From Candidatus Undinarchaeales archaeon (GTDB lineage: Archaea; SpSt-1190; JASMDC01), in NCBI GenBank assembly GCA_030753015.1, contig JASMDC010000051.1, positions 1-23,474 on the forward strand: 23,474 nucleotides of DNA, in the 5' to 3' direction. Positions 6,105-16,414 of the stretch are shown here, piece by piece (the first letter of the stretch is position 1; every line of letters starts with the position of its first letter). The translations under genes and the position numbers were made by a program. The notes below the pieces were generated by a model. The model saw nothing but the letters and a program-made list of their open reading frames with translations, was not told the origin of the DNA and did no database searches.

Positions 6105-7754
6105 TCACACTTCGATAGCAGCGCCTGCCGACCTGACCGCAACCCCGGCCGGGTCATGGATCGAGCCGACGATCATTGCATATCCGTCCGAGAGCTCGTC
6201 GCTGTACTTCTCGGCGTCGCGGAAGACACGTCCTGCCATCCTTGTGTGCTCGGCCTCCCAGCCCGCCACGAGCATCGCCTCCTGCCCCGGCGCGAATCCG
6301 TCGCTGAAGCCGCGTATCACAGAATAAGGGCGCTCGCACGGTAACGACGAACCCTCGCAGAGGTCCCACTTGGTCACCCCGAGCTCTCTTGCCAGCGAGT
6401 TGACCGACGGTCCGCCGACAACGATGACCCGGTGCGCTGCAAGGTCGCTGGCGCTCACCTCGCTGTCCAGCATCGCCCTGACCAGGAACTCCTGCGAGCC
6501 GAGGTACTGGCCGATCTCGGCGGCAGCGATGCTGTCGTCCGCCTTCGATCCCTCGCCGACGACGACGAGCACGGTCTCGCGTCCTGACCCGCCGATGGCC
6601 CCGGACACGGTGAACAGCCCCTGGCCGTACAGCTCCCTGGCCCTGTCATCGGGATCGTAGCTGGAGATGATCTCGCCCACGACCGACTGTGCGATGGACA
6701 GAGAGTACTCCGCTTTGAACTCGTCCCCCGCAGCGAGCCGGTGCACGATCACCTCACCCCCGGACCCGGAGTACTTGAGCAGGAACGCAGTGGGTCCCGG
6801 GCTCAGGTCACCGGGGATGTCGAGGTCCAGCACGAGGTGCAGGTCCATGGGCTCGTCGAGAGTGAGCTCTTCTACGGCCGCGACGATACCCACCATGCCC
6901 CTGGCGTACTCCTGGGGGTCTTTCGTACGTATCGCGTCGACCTCCAGCTTGAACGCAGCGAGCCTTTCCTCGACTTCCGCATCGAAGGTCGCGTGCGCCT
7001 CCCGGATGCCCCCGAGCGACGTCTTCAATGATCCTGTCTCGAGCTCCTCGCGCGCCCCGTTCACATCGTCGCGTATCCTCTCGAGCTCTGTCTCGTTCCA
7101 GAGCGGCGGGCCGTACCCGTTATCGTCGTAATCGCTCACCAGGGTCAGTTTGTCGTTGAGCATGAGCCAGGCCAGCTTCAGCAGCCTCGCACGTTCCTCG
7201 TCGGTGATCGTCGGGTCGGCCGCACGTTCGAGGGTAATATTGATCACCTTGTCCAAAAATCCCAACGCTTCGCCCCAGGCCTCCGCCTCCATTGGATTGC
7301 CCAGGCCCAGCCCCTCCTTCCCATTGCCCGAGATCCTGTCCCAGGCCGTGTGGTGCTCGGAATGGTACTTCTCGTGGACCAGCGTCTTTGCGAGCGACAT
7401 CATCCAGCTGACGTGCACGGGGTTCGACGGGTCAAAGGGGAGGCTGGGAGGATTGAACGCCCGGGGATCGACGAAGACCGGTCCGCCGTACTCGTCGTTC
7501 TTGCCCAGCGCGCCTCCGTCCAGCGGCTTCACGATGATCTTGCCGTTGCCCAGGTACAGTGCGATGTTGTCGGCAGTGGCGTTCTGCCCGATGGAGCGAA
7601 GGTAGTCGATGATCTTCTGTATCTCCTGTCCATGGAAGTTGGACGGGCTTGCCACCGTCACTGCCTGGACGACGATGGCGCCCAGCAGGATGCAGAGCAC
7701 CAATGCCAGCACGAGGCGTCCGTGATCAGTTCTGTCCTTGGCCGTCCCCTTCAT
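6105..7754 (-). CDS. Exported protein with HExxH motif and S-layer-like C-terminal domain
   Basis: Protein of 549 residues. Residues 14-33 are a strong hydrophobic segment (signal peptide or anchor). HEKYH at 127-131 fits the zinc-metallopeptidase motif HExxH. Glutamates at 156, 158 and 162 (PMEAEAWGEAL) are placed to give the third metal ligand, as in gluzincin-like proteins. A helical middle region (about 210-290) follows. The last 130 residues carry VIVVGGPSVN and a LVAGWEAEHTRMAGRVF motif resembling the C-terminal domain of archaeal S-layer proteins (VxxGGP...AGxxAxDTR). It is likely an envelope protein, perhaps a wall-associated peptidase; activity is unproven. The ATG at 7752-7754 has a TATA-like box about 25 nt upstream, suggesting a leaderless mRNA. 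Confidence 0.75.
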   Translation of the reverse strand: MKGTAKDRTDHGRLVLALVLCILLGAIVVQAVTVASPSNFHGQEIQKIIDYLRSIGQNATADNIALYLGNGKIIVKPLDGGALGKNDEYGGPVFVDPRAFNPPSLPFDPSNPVHVSWMMSLAKTLVHEKYHSEHHTAWDRISGNGKEGLGLGNPMEAEAWGEALGFLDKVINITLERAADPTITDEERARLLKLAWLMLNDKLTLVSDYDDNGYGPPLWNETELERIRDDVNGAREELETGSLKTSLGGIREAHATFDAEVEERLAAFKLEVDAIRTKDPQEYARGMVGIVAAVEELTLDEPMDLHLVLDLDIPGDLSPGPTAFLLKYSGSGGEVIVHRLAAGDEFKAEYSLSIAQSVVGEIISSYDPDDRARELYGQGLFTVSGAIGGSGRETVLVVVGEGSKADDSIAAAEIGQYLGSQEFLVRAMLDSEVSASDLAAHRVIVVGGPSVNSLARELGVTKWDLCEGSSLPCERPYSVIRGFSDGFAPGQEAMLVAGWEAEHTRMAGRVFRDAEKYSDELSDGYAMIVGSIHDPAGVAVRSAGAAIEV

Positions 7755-7950: not shown

Positions 7951-9324
7951 ATGCGGTTCATCGATAGGGAGCCAGAACTGGAGGAGCTGGGACGGATACG
8001 GTCCCTTTCCGAGCGGAAGCTCTTTGCCATCGCGGTCTACGGCATACGGAGGGTGGGCAAGACACGGCTCGCGCTGGAGTTCCTAAAGGACGGCGGGACC
8101 TACCTCTTCGTCAACCGCAACAAGAGGTCCTCGGACCTCCTGAAGGAGTTCGAGGGGGTTCTGCGGAGCGGGGGTCTTCTCGGTGAGCTCGAACGGCTCG
8201 ACTCCTGGGAGCGGTTCGTCGACGTCATCATAGCGAGGTCACAAGGACCTGTCGTCATCGACGAGTTCCAGAACTTCCACCACGTGGAGCCGTCCTTGTT
8301 CGGGACGCTGCAGCAAGCTCTTGACACCCACGAGGACACGCCCGGCTGCATCGTACTGCTCGGCTCGGTCATGGGGCTCGTGAGGAGGACGTTCGAGGAC
8401 AGTAGGGAACCGCTGTACGGCAGGGTGAAACGGGCCATCCGGCTGCGACCGCTGTCCCTCGCGGCCACCCTGGAGGCCGGACATGAGCTCGGGCTCTCGC
8501 GGGAGGACGCGGTGAAGTGCGCGTGCATCTTCGGCGGGTACCCGAAGTACTACGTCACCATCGAGGACTTCGCCCTTCAGGGGCGGACCGCGGAGGAGAT
8601 CATCGACGCGCTCGTCCTGTCGGGGAACGCGCCGCTCGAGGACGAGGTGAACATGGTGCTCTCCCAGGAGTTCGGCCGACGGGGGGGCAGGTACTACTCG
8701 GTCCTGGAGGCCATCGCCAACGGGAGCACCACCCTCTCCTCCATCGCCGCGTACATGAGGGTGCCACCGACGTCCATCACACGGCACCTCAAGGAGCTCC
8801 GGGACTACTTCGAGCTCATCGGGCACGAGCTGCCGTTCGAGGGCAAGCGGGGCATCTACCTGATCAGCCATCCCCTCCTCAGGTTCTGGTTCGCGAACGT
8901 CCACAAGGACCTCACCCGCTACGTCGCCCGGGACCCCTCGTTCATCGAAGGCATCAGGAGGGGCCTGCCCGCCTACCTCGGGAGGGCGTTCGAGCCCATC
9001 GCCCGGGAGTTCGTTGTCGGCAAGCTCGGTCTCACTGAGGCCAGAGGGCAATGGGGGAGGGTACCGGGCGCCCCCAAGGGGGAGAACACCTACGAGATCG
9101 ACCTCATCGGACGCTCAGGGACGGGTACCTGTGCGTTCGAGTTCAAATGGCAGTCGCTCGATGTCCGTGATTGTCACACCATCCTGGCCGGATTGGAAAG
9201 GAAGACGTCCCTCGTCCGCACCCTTACCCCGGACACGCGGCTCGGTATCGTTGCGCGCAGGATCAGGGGAAAGCGGACGCTGCGGGAAGAGGGTGCCCTG
9301 GTCTACGATATCGACGACTTCTGA
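7951..9324 (+). CDS. Archaeal ATPase, ATPase_2/DUF234 family, with C-terminal nuclease-like domain
   Basis: Protein of 457 residues. The N-terminal P-loop domain has Walker A GIRRVGKTRLA (31-41) and Walker B VVIDEFQ (101-107), as in the archaeal ATPase_2 family (PF01637). A winged-helix region lies at about 255-300 (STTLSSIAAYMRVPPTSITRHL). The DUF234-type C-terminus has QWGRVPGA, then NTYEIDLIG near 384 and FEFKW near 396. This D...ExK layout suggests a PD-(D/E)xK nuclease-like fold. These ATPases are abundant, often horizontally moved and of unknown cellular role. The ATG at 7951 is placed by the TATA box and family N-terminus. A paralogue of the same architecture lies at 13541. Confidence 0.85.
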   Translation: MRFIDREPELEELGRIRSLSERKLFAIAVYGIRRVGKTRLALEFLKDGGTYLFVNRNKRSSDLLKEFEGVLRSGGLLGELERLDSWERFVDVIIARSQGPVVIDEFQNFHHVEPSLFGTLQQALDTHEDTPGCIVLLGSVMGLVRRTFEDSREPLYGRVKRAIRLRPLSLAATLEAGHELGLSREDAVKCACIFGGYPKYYVTIEDFALQGRTAEEIIDALVLSGNAPLEDEVNMVLSQEFGRRGGRYYSVLEAIANGSTTLSSIAAYMRVPPTSITRHLKELRDYFELIGHELPFEGKRGIYLISHPLLRFWFANVHKDLTRYVARDPSFIEGIRRGLPAYLGRAFEPIAREFVVGKLGLTEARGQWGRVPGAPKGENTYEIDLIGRSGTGTCAFEFKWQSLDVRDCHTILAGLERKTSLVRTLTPDTRLGIVARRIRGKRTLREEGALVYDIDDF

Positions 9325-9492: not shown

Positions 9493-9511
9493 TGGCAGAC
9501 AGTGTCTGCCA
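9493..9511. repeat. Palindrome in the DUF1016 remnant (8-bp arms, 3-nt centre)
   Basis: TGGCAGAC / AGT / GTCTGCCA. It occupies the place of the palindrome at 15946-15970 of the intact gene but has a different arm sequence that is still perfectly symmetric. Confidence 0.85.
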
Positions 9512-9609
9512 GATCTCTTGTTCCGGTGATCGCGAGGTGTAATCGGAGATAAGGGTCTGCCGGGTTCGGGGATACGCAGGTCATATCGAAGGCCGTAGAG
9601 GATGTAATT

Positions 9610-9628
9610 GTGGCAACCGTGTTGCCAC
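9610..9628. repeat. Second palindrome in the DUF1016 remnant
   Basis: GTGGCAAC / CGT / GTTGCCAC, with 8-bp arms. It corresponds to the palindrome at 16012-16030 of the intact gene. Spacing to the first remnant palindrome is 117 bp instead of 63. Confidence 0.85.
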
Positions 9629-9670
9629 TTTTCTTGGTGTCTGACATCTTGAAGGCAGCAGCTCATAAGC

Positions 9671-11077
9671 TCAGGGCATCAATCTCATCTGGAAGTCACT
9701 GCGTTTCTTCTTGCTTTCCTTCATCTTTTTCTTAATGACCTGATCGAAGTCTTTGGCCCTGATGAAGATGTACTTGTTACCGATCATCCGCCTTTCTATG
9801 AAGCCCAGATTCTCCAAGTGGAGCAGATCCGACCGTGCGGTCTGGTACACGACGTCGAAGGTGTTCTTGGCCTCGTTTATCGTGAGTGTCCGTTTCGAGT
9901 CCTCTGACAATTTGTTCAGGATGTACCGTTGACGATCGTTAAGACCATCGATCTGCAGGAACTTGAACAACTTGTCCTTTTCCTTGATCTTCTTGGATAT
10001 GTACTCCTTGAGGTCCTTGAGGGCGATATGGATCGTCCTGATCTTGTACTTGATGAAATAGGTGACATCGTTCTCGTCCTTTTCCGAGTGAAGATATGCT
10101 CGAGCGTACTGTGAAGGCGCTCGGATGATCGTCTTGGAGATGGGCATGTACTCGATCAACCAGTACTCGTTGGATATGAGGTACCAGTAGAATATGGCCC
10201 TCGCGGCCCGTCCGTTCCCGTCCTCGAATGGATGGACGAAGCCGATGAGGAAGTGGAGGATGCTCGCTTTGATTATCGGATGGATGAACTTCTGCTTCTG
10301 CATCTTGTTCGCGAAATCGCACACGTCCCGGACCAGTTGCGGGACCAGCTTGTGATCTGGCGGTACGTGAACGGATTCGCCCGTCATCCGATCGATGACG
10401 TGGACATCGTTCGTGTCGCGGAACCGACCCTCGTATTTCTTATCATCGAGCGTGTTGCGTGTGATGAGTGCGTGGATCTCCAGAAGTCGTTCGGTCGTGA
10501 GCGGATCGTTCTTCAGCTCGATGATCCTCTTGATCGTAAGGTAGTTGTTCAGGATCATCTGTTCGGACCGGTCCCTGGGCTTCCGTGACGTCCTCAACAT
10601 CTCCTTCGCCACCTTCCGCGTCGTTACAGCACCCTCCAGCTGGCTGGAAGCGATGGCCTCCTCCATGAGCGAGCTGATCAGGTACCTATCCCGGTCCTCT
10701 TCAGGGATGATGCTTGTCGTCGATATCGATCCTCCCAGATTCATGTCGAACTCGTGCAGCTTCTCGAGGATCGGGTTCGAAAGATTGAACTTGATATCCA
10801 ATAACTTTGTTTTACCGATGTTGATCTGTGTGGCTTTCAATGTTCGCAATAATTTGATCAGTGCCCATAAGGAGTCGTTCTTGATGTCCTTTGGCGGAGA
10901 GCGGTAGCGGATCTCGTCCCAATAATAGTAATTATCATTGACCTTATCAACGAACTTATGTACATCCGCTCGTTCGAGGTTCTTGATCACTTCCTGCATC
11001 TTGTCCTTATCCCCGAATATCTTCGATACATCCGGAGGATCGCTTGGCATCTTCATTGGATAGTATTGTGTGCTCAT
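9671..11077 (-). CDS. Fic family protein (predicted AMP transferase) with C-terminal winged helix
   Basis: Protein of 468 residues. The Fic motif HPFEDGNGRAAR is complete at 282-293, with catalytic His283-type and nucleotide-binding residues as expected for AMP transfer from ATP to a target hydroxyl. SSQLEG at 144-149 fits the inhibitory [S/T]xxxE[G/N] motif placed N-terminal to the Fic core (class II), so the enzyme is probably self-inhibited. A winged-helix domain at about 390-445 could bind DNA. The target is unknown. The gene is clearly richer in A, T and Lys/Ile codons than its neighbours, suggesting recent transfer. It sits between a DUF1016 remnant (3' side) and a deleted DUF1016 copy (5' side). 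The start is ATG at 11075-11077. Confidence 0.9.
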   Translation of the reverse strand: MSTQYYPMKMPSDPPDVSKIFGDKDKMQEVIKNLERADVHKFVDKVNDNYYYWDEIRYRSPPKDIKNDSLWALIKLLRTLKATQINIGKTKLLDIKFNLSNPILEKLHEFDMNLGGSISTTSIIPEEDRDRYLISSLMEEAIASSQLEGAVTTRKVAKEMLRTSRKPRDRSEQMILNNYLTIKRIIELKNDPLTTERLLEIHALITRNTLDDKKYEGRFRDTNDVHVIDRMTGESVHVPPDHKLVPQLVRDVCDFANKMQKQKFIHPIIKASILHFLIGFVHPFEDGNGRAARAIFYWYLISNEYWLIEYMPISKTIIRAPSQYARAYLHSEKDENDVTYFIKYKIRTIHIALKDLKEYISKKIKEKDKLFKFLQIDGLNDRQRYILNKLSEDSKRTLTINEAKNTFDVVYQTARSDLLHLENLGFIERRMIGNKYIFIRAKDFDQVIKKKMKESKKKRSDFQMRLMP

Positions 11078-11366: not shown

Positions 11367-11520
11367 CTACCCGTCAGCTGGCAGCATGTCCTCCCGTCTC
11401 ATCTGCTCTTCCAGGAACCGCTGGATCTCCTCCTTTTCCGGCAGCTGCAGTCGATAGCGGTGAGCTGTTCCAGATGGGTGTACGATAGCGATGACAGTAG
11501 TCTTCCGGAAGTAGTGACAA

Positions 11521-11545
11521 ATTGTTGCGTCAGTGACGCAACAAT
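11521..11545. repeat. Coding palindrome in DUF1016 pseudogene (site 1)
   Basis: ATTGTTGCGTC / AGT / GACGCAACAAT: perfect 11-bp arms. Minus-strand coding sense is IVASLTQQ. Confidence 0.9.
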
Positions 11546-11586
11546 CTCTGATGGAGGACAATCCGGGGATGGTAATGGATGTGATT

Positions 11587-11605
11587 GTTGCGACACTGTC
11601 GCAAC
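11587..11605. repeat. Coding palindrome in DUF1016 pseudogene (site 2)
   Basis: GTTGCGAC / ACT / GTCGCAAC: perfect 8-bp arms, 63 bp from site 1 core to core. Coding sense is KVATVSQQ. Confidence 0.9.
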
Positions 11606-11649
11606 TTTTCCAGGTAGCATTGTTCTGGGGAATCGCAGACCACCGAGCA

Positions 11650-11674
11650 ATTGTGGAGACAGTGTCTCCACAAT
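11650..11674. repeat. Coding palindrome in DUF1016 pseudogene (site 3)
   Basis: ATTGTGGAGAC / AGT / GTCTCCACAAT: perfect 11-bp arms, 66 bp from site 2 core to core. Coding sense is IVETLSPQ. Identical to the site at 16072-16096. Confidence 0.9.
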
Positions 11675-12100
11675 CTTTGGATAGCACAGGTAGAACCGCC
11701 GATAACGATACAATGCGATCCTGTCGCAGCGTCTCATCCCTTTTTCATGCAAGGCCTTTGCCAGATCGTCCATCAGGCGGTCGCCGTAGGTTGCCCGGTC
11801 CACGCCCTTGCGTTCGTACTCCTCGATATGGAACCCGATCAGCCAGTTCCTGATGGTCAGGCTGATGTTCACGGCCTTCGTAGCATGAACGGCCAATCGC
11901 TCGTGGACCTCGGCGATCGTGCCGACAAGGGCCCCAAAGCTCAATGACCCGCCGGTCCCCTTACCCCTCGCCACCGTTCTCTTTGTGGCCATGGCATCAC
12001 ATGTACACCATGGGTACTATCCCTTATTCCGTCTCGTTACTACCCGGGGTCGTCCTTTGGGCGTCCAAGAGGCACCATGACGTGCATCATCACCCGGGTG

Positions 12101-12259
12101 ACGGGGACGGTATCAGACCAGGGAAAGAAAATCGGGCATAGTGCAGCGGGGGGAAGGAAGTAAATTCCAGGTGCCACACAATGCCCTTGTTCCCGTGTAA
12201 TGCGTCCGGAGTTAATTAATCTGTCGTTTCGGGTGCCGTCACGGTTCCGGGAACGCCCC
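12101..12259. repeat. Dispersed island repeat, copy B
   Basis: About 159 bp aligning with copies at 9331 and 15027: GGGGACGGTA, GCAGCGGGGGGAAGGAAGTA, ATTCCAGGTGCCACAC, TTCCGGGAACGCC. It lies just 3' of the TPR gene (minus strand) and upstream of the deleted DUF1016 copy, whose 5' flank (11993-12075) matches that of the intact DUF1016 gene (16415-16488). Confidence 0.8.
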
Positions 12260-13508: not shown

Positions 13509-13551
13509 GTATATATAGTTGAGACTAAAGTATACTACTTGTGTCTCAACT
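13509..13551 (+). promoter_or_regulatory. TATA box and 35-bp dyad operator of the second ATPase
   Basis: TGTATATATA (13509-13517) lies about 25-30 nt before the GTG at 13541, indicating a leaderless mRNA. A large dyad follows at once. Outer arms AGTTGAGAC (13517-13525) and GTCTCAACT (13543-13551) enclose inner arms AAGTA (13528-13532) and TACTT (13536-13540) around TAC. All share one centre at 13534, giving 28 of 35 positions in matched pairs. The right outer arm is inside the coding sequence. This is an ideal repressor site covering the start of transcription and translation. Confidence 0.65.
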
Positions 13552-15007
13552 CTTTGTCGACAGGGGCCCTGAACTCGGTTTCCTGAAGGAACGGCTCGGC
13601 TCGAACGAACCGGAGTTCGTGGTGATCTACGGCCGCAGGAGGGTCGGGAAGACCAAGCTCGTGCTGGAGTTCCTGAGAGAGGAACGAGGTATCTATCTCC
13701 TGGCCACGGAGGAAGGCGACCGCGAGAACATACGCGCTTTCGCTACGGAGTTCGGGAAGTTACTGGGTGACGACGGTTTTTCGAAGGCGACCTATCCCGA
13801 CTGGTCCTCCCTTTTCGATTCCCTCTGCAACCACGCGGCCTTCACGAAGGAGCGGGATGAAAAGACCATCATAGTTATCGACGAGTTCCCGTTCCTGATC
13901 CGCGGCAACAGGGCGGTCCCCTCGATCTTCCAGAAGATCTGGGAGCAGGTCCTGGAACGACGGAACGTCATGCTCGTCCTCCTCGGCTCCTCGGTGAGCG
14001 CCATGGAATCAGAGGTGCTGGGCTACAAAAGCCCCCTGTACGGGCGGAGGACGGGGCAGTGGCAGATAGCGCCGCTCGAGTTCCGTTTCCTGGGGGAGTT
14101 CTTCCCGGACTATACGATAGAGGACCTTGCGAACGTGTGGTTCGTCGTCGGCGGGATACCGGCCTACCTGCTTAGGTTCGATCCGCACCTCTCGTTCTTC
14201 GAGAACGTCGAGCAGAAGGTCCTGAAGAAGGGCTCATACCTCCACAGGGAGATGGACATCCTGCTCCGGGACGAGTTCCGTGAGCCGAGGAACTACAGGC
14301 TCATCTTCAAGGCGATCTCGCTAGGGTACCACCGTCTGGCCGAGATATGCGACCAGACCGGGCTCGACAAGAGCATGGTCTCCAAGTACCTGGACGTGCT
14401 CGACAGGCTCCACCTGATCGTGGAAGAGAAGCCCGTCCTTGCCCCCGCGAAGTTCAGGAGGAAGCGCCATCTCCTCTCGGACCAGTACTTCTCCTTCTGG
14501 TTCAGGTACGTGTACCTGAACAGGATCGAGCTGGAGGCCATGCGGTACGGGGAGGTCCTTGGTCTGGTGAAGAACGATTTCCCTACCTATGCGGGCAGGG
14601 CCTTCGAGTCCCTGGTGAAGCACCTGCTCCTGACAGGGACCGTCCGGGGACCCTTCCCGTTCACGAGGATCGGTCGGCAGTGGGGAAAGGTCCCCGGGGC
14701 AAAGAGGGGGAAGAACACCTACGAGATCGACCTCGTGGCCGTGAACGAGGCGACCGTGGACATCTTGTTCGTCGAGTGCAAGTGGAAGGAGGGGGTCAGC
14801 GCACGACGCGTGCTGGCGGAGCTCAGGGAGAAGGCGGGGCACGTCGACTGGCGAAAAGGCTCCCGGAAGGAGCACTTCGCCATCTTCGCGAAGTCGTTCT
14901 CCCGGCGCTCCGATGACTGTCTATGCTACGACCTGAAGGACCTGGAGAAGACACTCCCGGGACGGGGACGTGAAGGCACGGGTCCGTCGCCCTCGATGAC
15001 CTCGTGA
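13541..15007 (+). CDS. Archaeal ATPase, ATPase_2/DUF234 family (second copy)
   Basis: Protein of 488 residues. Walker A is GRRRVGKTKL (31-40), Walker B is IIVIDEFPF near 110-118. LGSSVSAMESE and the GGIPAYLL motif are typical of this family. A winged helix lies near 265-300 (RLAEICDQTGLDKSMVSKYLDVLDRL). The C-terminal domain has QWGKVPGAKRGKNTYEIDLVA near 395 and FVECKWK near 411, a PD-(D/E)xK-like D...ExK arrangement. The architecture matches the ATPase at 7951 but the sequences are well diverged, so they are separate lineages rather than a recent duplication. The GTG start at 13541 is supported by TATA spacing and by SQLFVDRGPEL matching the family's usual F-x-x-R-x-x-E-L start. Confidence 0.85.
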   Translation: MSQLFVDRGPELGFLKERLGSNEPEFVVIYGRRRVGKTKLVLEFLREERGIYLLATEEGDRENIRAFATEFGKLLGDDGFSKATYPDWSSLFDSLCNHAAFTKERDEKTIIVIDEFPFLIRGNRAVPSIFQKIWEQVLERRNVMLVLLGSSVSAMESEVLGYKSPLYGRRTGQWQIAPLEFRFLGEFFPDYTIEDLANVWFVVGGIPAYLLRFDPHLSFFENVEQKVLKKGSYLHREMDILLRDEFREPRNYRLIFKAISLGYHRLAEICDQTGLDKSMVSKYLDVLDRLHLIVEEKPVLAPAKFRRKRHLLSDQYFSFWFRYVYLNRIELEAMRYGEVLGLVKNDFPTYAGRAFESLVKHLLLTGTVRGPFPFTRIGRQWGKVPGAKRGKNTYEIDLVAVNEATVDILFVECKWKEGVSARRVLAELREKAGHVDWRKGSRKEHFAIFAKSFSRRSDDCLCYDLKDLEKTLPGRGREGTGPSPSMTS

Positions 15008-15026: not shown

Positions 15027-15193
15027 CAGGGGACAGTAACAGGCTCAAGAAGGAAGAATGGGCATGATGTAGCGGGGGGAAGGAAGTATTAATTCCAGGT
15101 GCCACACCATGCCCTGTGCATTATTAGGTGTCCAGAGTTTATCAACCTGTCGTATCGGGTGTCGTTACGGTCTTGGGAACCCGCCTGGTCGTG
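15027..15193. repeat. Dispersed island repeat, copy C
   Basis: The best-preserved copy. It starts 20 nt after the second ATPase and ends at the 3' end of the intact DUF1016 gene. GGGCATG (15060-15066) can pair with CATGCCC (15108-15114); the stem is largely kept in copies A and B. Read on the minus strand its right end encodes DVTRPGGFPRP plus stop, a frame also present in the fragment at 16686. Confidence 0.85.
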
Positions 15194-16414
15194 TCACGTC
15201 GGTGGCACCTGCGTCCGTTCCCTTCTCATCTGCTCTTCCAGGAACCTCTGGATCTCCTCCTTTTCCGGCAGTTGCAGTCGATAGCGGGAGACGAAGAGCT
15301 GGTTGTCCATCCCGGCAAGGGCGTATTCCACCAGAGCACGGTCCTTCTGCGTGCAGAGAAGGAGGCCCACTGGAGGATTGTCACCACTGGTCATCTCATT
15401 GTCGCGGTACCAGTTGAGATAGGTGTTGAGCTGGCCGAGGTGTTCGTGGCTGAAGCCATCGACCTTCAGCTCGATCAGCACGTGGCACTTTAGGATGCGG
15501 TGGTAGAGGACCAGATCGACGAAGTAATGTCCGTCGCCTATGAGCATCCGCTTCTGTCTGGCCTCGAAGCAGAAGCCGTGCCCGAGCTCCAGCAGGAACT
15601 CCTGGAGCCTGTCCAGCAGCAGGTCCTCCAGTTCCGACTCGCCCATCACCTCTTTGGCCCGTATCCCGAGGAACTCGAACACATAGGGGTCACGTACCGT
15701 CAGGCGAGGCGAATCCACTTCCGCGCCCGATCGTACGAGCTCGGCCAGCTTCTTCTTGTCCCTCGACAGCCCCGAACGCTCGAAATAGAGACTGGCGATC
15801 TGGCGCTTGAGCTCCCGCACGGACCAGTTGCCCCGGACGCATTCTATCTCGTAGAAGGAGCGCTTCAGCGGGTCCTCGATAGCGGTGAGCCGTTCCAGAT
15901 GGCAGTACGATAGCGATGATAGGAGCATTTCGGGAGACGTTCCCAATTGTGGCAACAGTGTTGCCACAATCTCTGGTGCAGGGCATATCGGAGCCGGTAA
16001 AGGATGTGATTGTGGGGACGATGTCCCCACTTTTACTGATGACCGATATCCTCTAGGTAGAAGAGAATGGAATTGTGGAGACAGTGTCTCCACAATCTGA
16101 GGATAGCACAGGTAGAACCGACGGTAACGATACAATGCGCCCCGGTCACAGCGTCTCATCCCTTTTTCGTTCAAAGCCTTTGCGAGTTCGTCCATCAAGC
16201 GCTCGCCATAGGTGGCCCGGTCCACGCCATCGCGTTCGTACTCCTCGATATAGTAGCCGATCAGCCAGTTCCTGATGGTCAGGCTGATGTTCACCGCCCT
16301 CGTGGCATGAACGGCCAGTCGCTGATGGACCTCGGCGATCGTGCCGACAAGGCCGTCAAAGCTCAATGCTGTACTGAACGCCCTGCCCCTCGCCTCCGTT
16401 CTCTTCGGGGCCAT
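15194..16414 (-). CDS. DUF1016 / YhcG-like PD-(D/E)xK nuclease-domain protein (intact)
   Basis: Protein of 406 residues. The DUF1016_N domain (about 20-180) is helical with TIRNWLIGYYIEEYE and YRYRRFYLCYP. The C-terminal PD-(D/E)xK domain (about 240-385) has FVD300, IELK (Glu315, Lys317) and Gln328, so the likely catalytic set is complete. RGNWSVRELKRQI (194-206) and RSGLSRDK (213-220) are family hallmarks. Between residues 107 and 156 three repeats (IVETLSPQ, KVGTSSPQ, IVATLLPQ) recur every 21 residues, encoded by perfect DNA palindromes. Cellular function is not settled; a role in restriction or mobile-element biology is commonly suspected. The ATG at 16412-16414 is supported by the paralogue starting at the same residue. 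Confidence 0.9.
   Translation of the reverse strand: MAPKRTEARGRAFSTALSFDGLVGTIAEVHQRLAVHATRAVNISLTIRNWLIGYYIEEYERDGVDRATYGERLMDELAKALNEKGMRRCDRGALYRYRRFYLCYPQIVETLSPQFHSLLPRGYRSSVKVGTSSPQSHPLPAPICPAPEIVATLLPQLGTSPEMLLSSLSYCHLERLTAIEDPLKRSFYEIECVRGNWSVRELKRQIASLYFERSGLSRDKKKLAELVRSGAEVDSPRLTVRDPYVFEFLGIRAKEVMGESELEDLLLDRLQEFLLELGHGFCFEARQKRMLIGDGHYFVDLVLYHRILKCHVLIELKVDGFSHEHLGQLNTYLNWYRDNEMTSGDNPPVGLLLCTQKDRALVEYALAGMDNQLFVSRYRLQLPEKEEIQRFLEEQMRRERTQVPPT
15946..15970. repeat. Coding palindrome in intact DUF1016 (site 1)
   Basis: ATTGTGGCAAC / AGT / GTTGCCACAAT: perfect 11-bp arms, coding sense IVATLLPQ (residues 149-156). Confidence 0.95.
16012..16030. repeat. Coding palindrome in intact DUF1016 (site 2)
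   Basis: GTGGGGAC / GAT / GTCCCCAC: perfect 8-bp arms, 63 bp from site 1 core to core, coding sense KVGTSSPQ (128-135). Confidence 0.95.
16072..16096. repeat. Coding palindrome in intact DUF1016 (site 3)
   Basis: ATTGTGGAGAC / AGT / GTCTCCACAAT: perfect 11-bp arms, 63 bp from site 2 core to core, coding sense IVETLSPQ (107-114). Confidence 0.95.

Follow-up and report, generated by a model that had tools for sequence, protein, structure and literature searches.

The window, the whole stretch of 23,474 nt that was analysed, contains an intact gene of the YhcG/DUF1016 family, a truncated paralogue and a DUF1016 remnant. The intact gene has the architecture of the family, a DUF1016_N domain (Pfam, E 6.7e-23) followed by a YhcG_C domain (E 4.9e-54), and is classed by PADLOC as PDC-S02, a phage-defence candidate. 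All three carry palindromes:

15194 to 16414, minus strand: intact DUF1016/YhcG gene, 406 amino acids, DUF1016_N (PF17761) and YhcG_C of PD-(D/E)XK type (PF06250), PADLOC PDC-S02
16072 to 16096, minus strand: palindrome 1 of the intact gene, ATTGTGGAGACA C TGTCTCCACAAT, coding for IVETLSPQ, 12-bp arms, 1-nt centre
16012 to 16030, minus strand: palindrome 2 of the intact gene, GTGGGGAC ATC GTCCCCAC, coding for VGTSSPQ, 8-bp arms, 3-nt centre
15946 to 15970, minus strand: palindrome 3 of the intact gene, ATTGTGGCAACA C TGTTGCCACAAT, coding for IVATLLPQ, 12-bp arms, 1-nt centre
11399 to 11992, minus strand: truncated DUF1016 paralogue, its N-terminal part 72% identical and joined to the last 23 residues
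11650 to 11674, minus strand: palindrome 1 of the paralogue, ATTGTGGAGACA C TGTCTCCACAAT
11587 to 11605, minus strand: palindrome 2 of the paralogue, GTTGCGACA G TGTCGCAAC
11521 to 11545, minus strand: palindrome 3 of the paralogue, ATTGTTGCGTCA C TGACGCAACAAT
9610 to 9628, minus strand: palindrome of the DUF1016 remnant, GTGGCAAC ACG GTTGCCAC, at a weak tblastn match (9521-9682, E 0.02)
9493 to 9511, minus strand: palindrome of the DUF1016 remnant, TGGCAGACA C TGTCTGCCA, coding for EIWQTLSAK

All eight palindromes of the original prediction (three in the intact gene, three in the paralogue, two in the remnant) are thus present. Arms of 11, 8 and 11 bp around a 3-nt centre had been given for the intact gene, which for the outer two amounts to 12-bp arms around a 1-nt centre. 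The 63-bp spacing of the cores within this gene is also correct, with centres at 15958, 16021 and 16084 (63 and 63 bp apart); those of the paralogue are 63 and 66 bp apart and the two palindromes of the remnant 117 bp.

An intergenic duplicate (12103-12187 and 15029-15115, 77-96% identical) flanks the DUF1016 copies and is a trace of segmental duplication. Archaeal genes of the ATPase_2 + DUF234 type lie at 13541-15007 and 7951-9324, and an inverted repeat at 13517-13551 (16-nt arms, 88%, 3 nt between them) spans the GTG start of the former. DUF1016_N is present in only 2 of 61 genomes (the window genome and archaeal relatives) and the window genome has several loci, which makes a horizontal gain likely.

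The AlphaFold2 model of the window protein has a pLDDT of 85, with low confidence for the linker that is encoded by the palindromes. Since nuclease-domain matches filled the fold search with the full-length model, the N-domain was also searched alone (pLDDT 88). The C-terminal domain is the following:

15245 to 15700, minus strand: PD-(D/E)XK nuclease domain that spans residues 239-390 and has the family-invariant residues E259, E276, D300 and K317

These four acidic and lysine catalytic residues are invariant in 92 sequences. The best structural match of the C-domain model is EndoMS (Z 12.0, 111 aligned residues, 3.0 A), and several PD-(D/E)XK enzymes exceed Z 8; as modelled, the domain is a PD-(D/E)XK fold and a predicted nuclease. 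The ten best matches of the N-domain are all DNA-binding domains of ParB, Noc or Spo0J at Z 5.5-7.0, which for helical folds is too low to be safe, and the next unrelated match has Z 4.4. A resemblance of the modelled N-domain to the ParB/Noc DNA-binding domains is therefore suggestive. A PDB sequence search returned no relative among solved structures, NCBIfam has no model for the DUF1016 protein and PHROGs leaves its function unannotated. According to the analysis by Kosinski 2005 (PMC1189080), YhcG/DUF1016 proteins are predicted PD-(D/E)XK nucleases with an N-domain of no known fold or function; the window gene is a member of this family. Little else is published on yhcG; another study reports synthetic lethality of yhcG with alleles of dnaB, dnaN and parE (PMC2672614).

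Homologues were gathered by profile from genome contigs, viral contigs, plasmids, E. coli and whole genomes, which gave 298 distinct genes, reduced to 208 representatives from bacteria, archaea and phages. Sampling was uneven, alignments were automatic and many loci come from metagenome assemblies. An odd palindrome centred on codon position 1 (phase 1) sits in the same linker in most members of the family; 236 palindromes fall into this class, and the five remaining phase classes add up to 38, odd and even ones counted. For 83% of the 208 representatives the best phase-1 palindrome scores at least 8, which synonymous shuffling of the codons yields in 4%; for a score of at least 10 the two values are 59% and 0.5%. 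About 17% of the representative genes lack a site scoring at least 8. The suspicion that the palindromes are a DUF1016-wide feature is borne out by these numbers, and the codon-preserving shuffle shows that their symmetry is far above what the encoded protein brings about. The helical register proposed for the window did not hold up as a general feature: palindromes are spaced by 24-183 nt across the family, which makes the 63 bp (six helical turns) a local accident.

E. coli K-12 yhcG has three intragenic palindromes. An extra one (AATTCTGCAGACAGTGTCTGCAGAATC, L014 ~6971-6995) lies about 16 nt past the stop codon in the gap before nanQ, and strain 21F61 (L151) has a compensated variant of it, CTCCAGAC...GTCTGGAG. 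The gene was matched in 4417 of 5426 E. coli genomes (region of loci L147-L150); several alleles have been cut short by IS elements or fused to other DNA, and in L149 a foreign segment (an ORF of ~101 aa labelled transposase) starts exactly at the third palindrome. At gene position ~335 of L255 and L210 the linker palindrome is even-centred (GAAATTGTGCACACGCGTGTGCACAATTT) instead of odd.

The outer AATT of the palindrome is conserved and positions 2-9 of the arms are variable. When sites were picked by the TxS protein motif alone, arm positions 6-8 paired in 75-83% of cases compared to 31-40% after permutation of the arms among genes. Mismatches are rare (111 versus 2,579 pairs), so that arms which vary widely stay complementary; the statement that the opposite arm follows each change holds family-wide. 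Inverted repeats this close to perfect, with centres of 1-3 nt and inside a transcribed gene, could be selected as an mRNA hairpin that serves in translation control, as a processing site or as a guide RNA. Selected RNA stems tolerate G-U pairs, but coding-strand G-T mismatches (16) are fewer than A-C mismatches (48) and after control for codon composition they are not commoner either (1.6% versus 2.7%, p = 0.15). Matching sites also occur in non-coding flanks, and the residue-to-base code described below suits the reading of DNA. The hairpin option of the original prediction is thus very improbable, and the symmetry, judged by its mismatches, is of the double-stranded DNA type and not that of an RNA stem. 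An antisense-strand hairpin, at which the raw excess of A-C mismatches had hinted, was dropped as not significant after the codon control.

A correlation of N- and C-domain matrices with the arms proved uninformative as both domains correlate, the C-domain more strongly (0.28 versus 0.13), and it was replaced by a column-wise test. For this, the linker was removed, the proteins were aligned and the mutual information between arm bases and protein columns was computed for 244 genes (about 166 effective). The leading pairs were position 7 with column 282 (z 15.4), position 8 with column 285 (z 14.6) and position 3 with column 504 (z 10.6). With a second scoring the top three reached z 13.6, 13.2 and 11.3 against 8.8 for the largest z of 200 clade-preserving shuffles. 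Weaker pairs connect position 2 with columns 473 and 505, position 4 with 476 and positions 5-6 with 286; position 2 with column 473 and the other weaker pairs are within the range of the clade-preserving maxima and have their support in the sister-pair test. The leading pairs recur when the three disjoint subsets (genome-contig, viral and whole-genome) are analysed one by one. Placed by the AlphaFold2 model and the covariation, the columns fall into three helices of the window protein:

16106 to 16144, minus strand: predicted reading helix 1, residues 91-103, columns 282, 285 and 286 (G92, Y95, R96), arm positions 5-8
15884 to 15907, minus strand: predicted reading helix 2, residues 170-177, columns 473 and 476 (C171, E174), arm positions 2 and 4
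15794 to 15820, minus strand: predicted reading helix 3, residues 199-207, columns 504 and 505 (V199, R200), arm positions 3 and 2

The correspondence between residues and bases is simple. Arginine in column 282 goes with G at position 7 (76.8 of 77.3 effective genes) and glutamate in column 285 with C at position 8 (18 of 18), while Tyr, Trp, Phe or Ala in the latter column goes with T (~44.6 of 45) and Lys or Arg mostly with G. Arg or Lys in column 504 is accompanied by C at position 3 (38 of 41), Arg in column 505 by C (97 of 98) and Arg in column 476 usually by C, which in all three cases is a G on the other strand. The covariation reads as a chemically sensible putative recognition code of Arg/Lys with G and Glu with C. 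The window protein is an exception at column 282, where it has Gly92 with Arg91 beside it; Y95 and its T fit the code. A counterexample is provided by L190 and L159, which differ at arm position 6 and have the same helix 1.

Residue and base also change together among 122 disjoint sister pairs, nearly always in the predicted direction. Of 28 pairs, 23 gained or lost arginine in column 282 and G at position 7 jointly, without exception in the predicted direction (23:0, p = 3e-13); the base at position 7 changed in 6 of 78 pairs without a change of residue in column 282. When the training proteins were limited to less than 50% identity, positions 3, 4, 7 and 8 were predicted correctly in 73-82% of cases compared to 48-53% for the majority base; the values were 77% for position 8 and 82% for position 7, for which the majority base gave 53% and the nearest neighbour 43%.

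Symmetry might also arise without function, through correction templated by a hairpin, gene conversion or a swap of entire palindromes. Arm changes between genes whose nuclease domains share more than 95% identity are more often double, with compensation, than single (18 versus 13), and palindrome patches are swapped between alleles. Since double changes prevail even in near-identical genes, templated copying, which the original prediction had listed, could help to keep the arms symmetric; alone it cannot explain why arm bases track amino acids. That arm bases and synonymous codons follow residues encoded at least 31 nt away (columns 282 and 285) is not predicted by any such process. We consider functionless symmetry improbable by a wide measure; as the sole cause a mutational process is contradicted, and it may contribute to how sites change.

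Because the arm bases also encode the linker, synonymous codons were compared. Linker Ser(+2) is encoded by TCN in 10 of 10 genes with Arg in column 282 and by AGY in 8 of 8 genes without it. Val(-3) is GTG in 41 of 41 genes with this arginine versus 3 of 16 otherwise, Arg(-3) is CGG in 14 of 14 versus 0 of 12, and Leu(-3) has a wobble G in 15 of 15 versus 0 of 16. For Gly and Arg at +2 the wobble base A, C or G is set by column 285 (GGA, GGC or GGG for Gly). Synonymous codons thus follow the reading residue, which argues that the protein reads DNA and that the site lies within its own gene. Docking of the linker peptide on the DUF1016_N helices, so that peptide and protein rather than DNA and protein coevolve, would agree with the fact that the arm bases largely fix the linker residues and that some linker-residue information is left after conditioning on the base. 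The same amino acid is, however, encoded by different codons depending on columns 282 and 285 (as above for Ser, Arg and Gly), the linker is predicted at low confidence and the symmetry of the DNA would stay unexplained, so we hold peptide docking to be highly improbable. Shuffles, pairing at the TxS sites, covariation and codon choice agree that the symmetry exceeds the protein constraint and is kept at the nucleic-acid level, as had been proposed, and of the roles then listed a binding site is favoured by the covariation with helix residues and by the codons.

Natural alleles point in the same direction. The E. coli alleles L145 and L143, which share 93-100% identity in the vicinity of the site, have a different helix 1 (SAKNLRQ versus STRNLWQ) and different bases at arm positions 7-9 (CGC versus GTG), with positions 1-6 unchanged. 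The archaeal alleles L303 and L304 differ in helix 2 (WYHAI versus WFHNC) and at arm positions 2-4, with positions 5-8 unchanged. Compared at the level of sequence, the two pairs are a double dissociation in which a change in one half of the putative reader is accompanied by a change in the corresponding half of the site.

Copies of the palindrome within one gene agree at positions 2-9 in 73% of cases, compared to 40% between genes and 29% for flanks. In 840 kb of loci the 19-mers of the individual genes turned up 326 times, and 317 of these copies lay inside the ORF they came from. The site of the window occurs five times in the 3.85 Mb of its own genome, each time in a DUF1016 copy; the respective site is found once in G062, at DUF1016, once in G063, adjoining its YhcG_C match, and twice in G065, one copy being intragenic and the other ~200 bp upstream. 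The site is thus essentially private to the DUF1016 locus in these four genomes. Among the paralogues of one genome, avoidance of shared arms was not seen (31 pairs). An upstream palindrome is present in 7 of 38 genes without an intragenic site versus 8 of 231 genes with one (p = 0.002, small numbers; background 3 of 240). Consensus palindromes were also noticed on two viral contigs on which no DUF1016 gene was found: two perfect tandem copies just upstream of a serine recombinase (L336, ~9938-9986) and one perfect copy between genes, not far from one for an ATPase (L338, 3423-3449). They are possibly relics or targets.

The Rickettsia palindromic elements, described in PMC4316617 as selfish sequences of ~100-150 nt in many genes, RNAs and intergenic regions, also place palindromic DNA in frame within protein genes. 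The DUF1016 palindromes could accordingly be selfish invaders of coding sequences with DUF1016 as their usual host, and an in-frame position together with a copy number that differs between homologues would suit such elements. The palindromes of DUF1016 are, however, much shorter (~19-39 nt) and confined to a single gene family, their arms are specific to the individual gene, and no dispersed copies were present in the genomes searched, where the sites occur at DUF1016 loci only. This origin is scarcely credible to us.

We propose that the intragenic palindromes are sites in double-stranded DNA, each bound by the protein of the same gene, most likely as a homodimer in view of the symmetry of the site. 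Contact would be made through the three DUF1016_N helices, whose coding sequences lie shortly before and after the site; the site itself encodes a probably disordered linker between the reading helices. DUF1016 genes thus seem to encode both a DNA-binding nuclease and its site, and recognition of the palindrome by the protein of its own gene is very probable on the strength of the comparisons above. Reader and site would diversify together, and one to four intragenic operators could block elongation and thereby cause autorepression. This role is favoured because the site is private to the locus, some copies lie upstream and an upstream palindrome is commoner in genes without an intragenic site. 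Taken as a whole (binding by the same-gene protein, joint diversification, autorepression favoured), this is in our view the best explanation and a probable one; that autorepression is the main purpose is an evenly balanced proposal. With the site inside the reader a mobile gene would carry its own control element. One recombination event would move both, an advantage to a gene carried around by phages, plasmids and islands.

The closest parallel is ParB/Noc with parS/NBS (PMC7383237), where a palindromic site is likewise read by a helix-turn-helix and adjacent helices, a few residues set specificity and R201 of Noc pairs with cytosine 6; the DUF1016_N model has its best, suggestive structural matches among domains of this kind. 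DUF1016 proteins differ by carrying a nuclease domain. Pfam at E 0.001 returned DUF1016_N and YhcG_C only and reported no ParB domain (the N-terminal CTPase), an absence that at this cut-off is not proof. Furthermore, parS is an even palindrome of 16 bp, whereas the DUF1016 sites have 25-27 bp, an odd centre and a variable core, vary widely between genes and are located in or beside the gene of their putative reader. Sites within transcribed genes have precedents: parS of B. subtilis is found inside spo0J (parB), and PurR at purB is a non-autogenous intragenic operator. The proposed repressor site within a transcribed gene resembles the latter. To our knowledge, intragenic operators have been found only as single cases in single organisms, whereas DUF1016 would be a whole family whose reader and site co-diversify in bacteria, archaea and phages. 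Neither the palindromes nor a DNA-reading code is described in the available parts of PMC4316617, PMC1189080 and PMC2672614; subscription literature is thinly covered here and an earlier report is possible.

The palindrome could instead be a target for cleavage or nicking, where the nuclease cuts its own gene or is poised on it. It might in this way sense copy number, act as a self-destruct switch or a homing-like device, or exclude elements with the same allele. Since the PD-(D/E)XK domain to which the reader is joined looks intact, with E259, E276, D300 and K317 invariant, self-cleavage, copy sensing and same-allele exclusion stay candidates. The near-privacy of the site, the presence of the family on phages and plasmids, its PDC-S02 class and some E. 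coli truncations that end at or near palindromes are in line with such a role. An unprotected site in its own gene would, however, be cut at once if the activity were not gated; beside the genes inspected there was no sign of a dedicated methylase or immunity gene, and the sites persist as multiple perfect copies. We regard self-cleavage as rather unlikely. Equally tentative is the wider proposal of a nuclease whose sole target in the host genome is the gene-private palindrome of its own coding sequence, so that the gene would sense, limit or cut its own copies, or mobile elements of the same allele, with escape by a joint switch of reader and site.

If binding by the same-gene protein is true, a widespread family that includes E. 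coli yhcG and a phage-defence candidate class gains a concrete function, the sequence-specific binding of a 25-bp site. The residue-to-base code would make specificity predictable from sequence. A gene that unites reader and site would let the coevolution of protein and DNA be followed through many independent solutions, as an experiment done by nature, and might be a means to control mobile nucleases. An amino acid in one part of a gene could, moreover, determine which synonymous codons are used elsewhere in that gene. Some genomes contain many family members: 17, 14, 11 and 10 YhcG_C matches were found in G178, G092, G209 and G172, and the palindromes vary among the copies read. On a Methylomonas plasmid (L008, 2956-4113) a DUF1016 gene separates pglX from pglZ in a BREX system.
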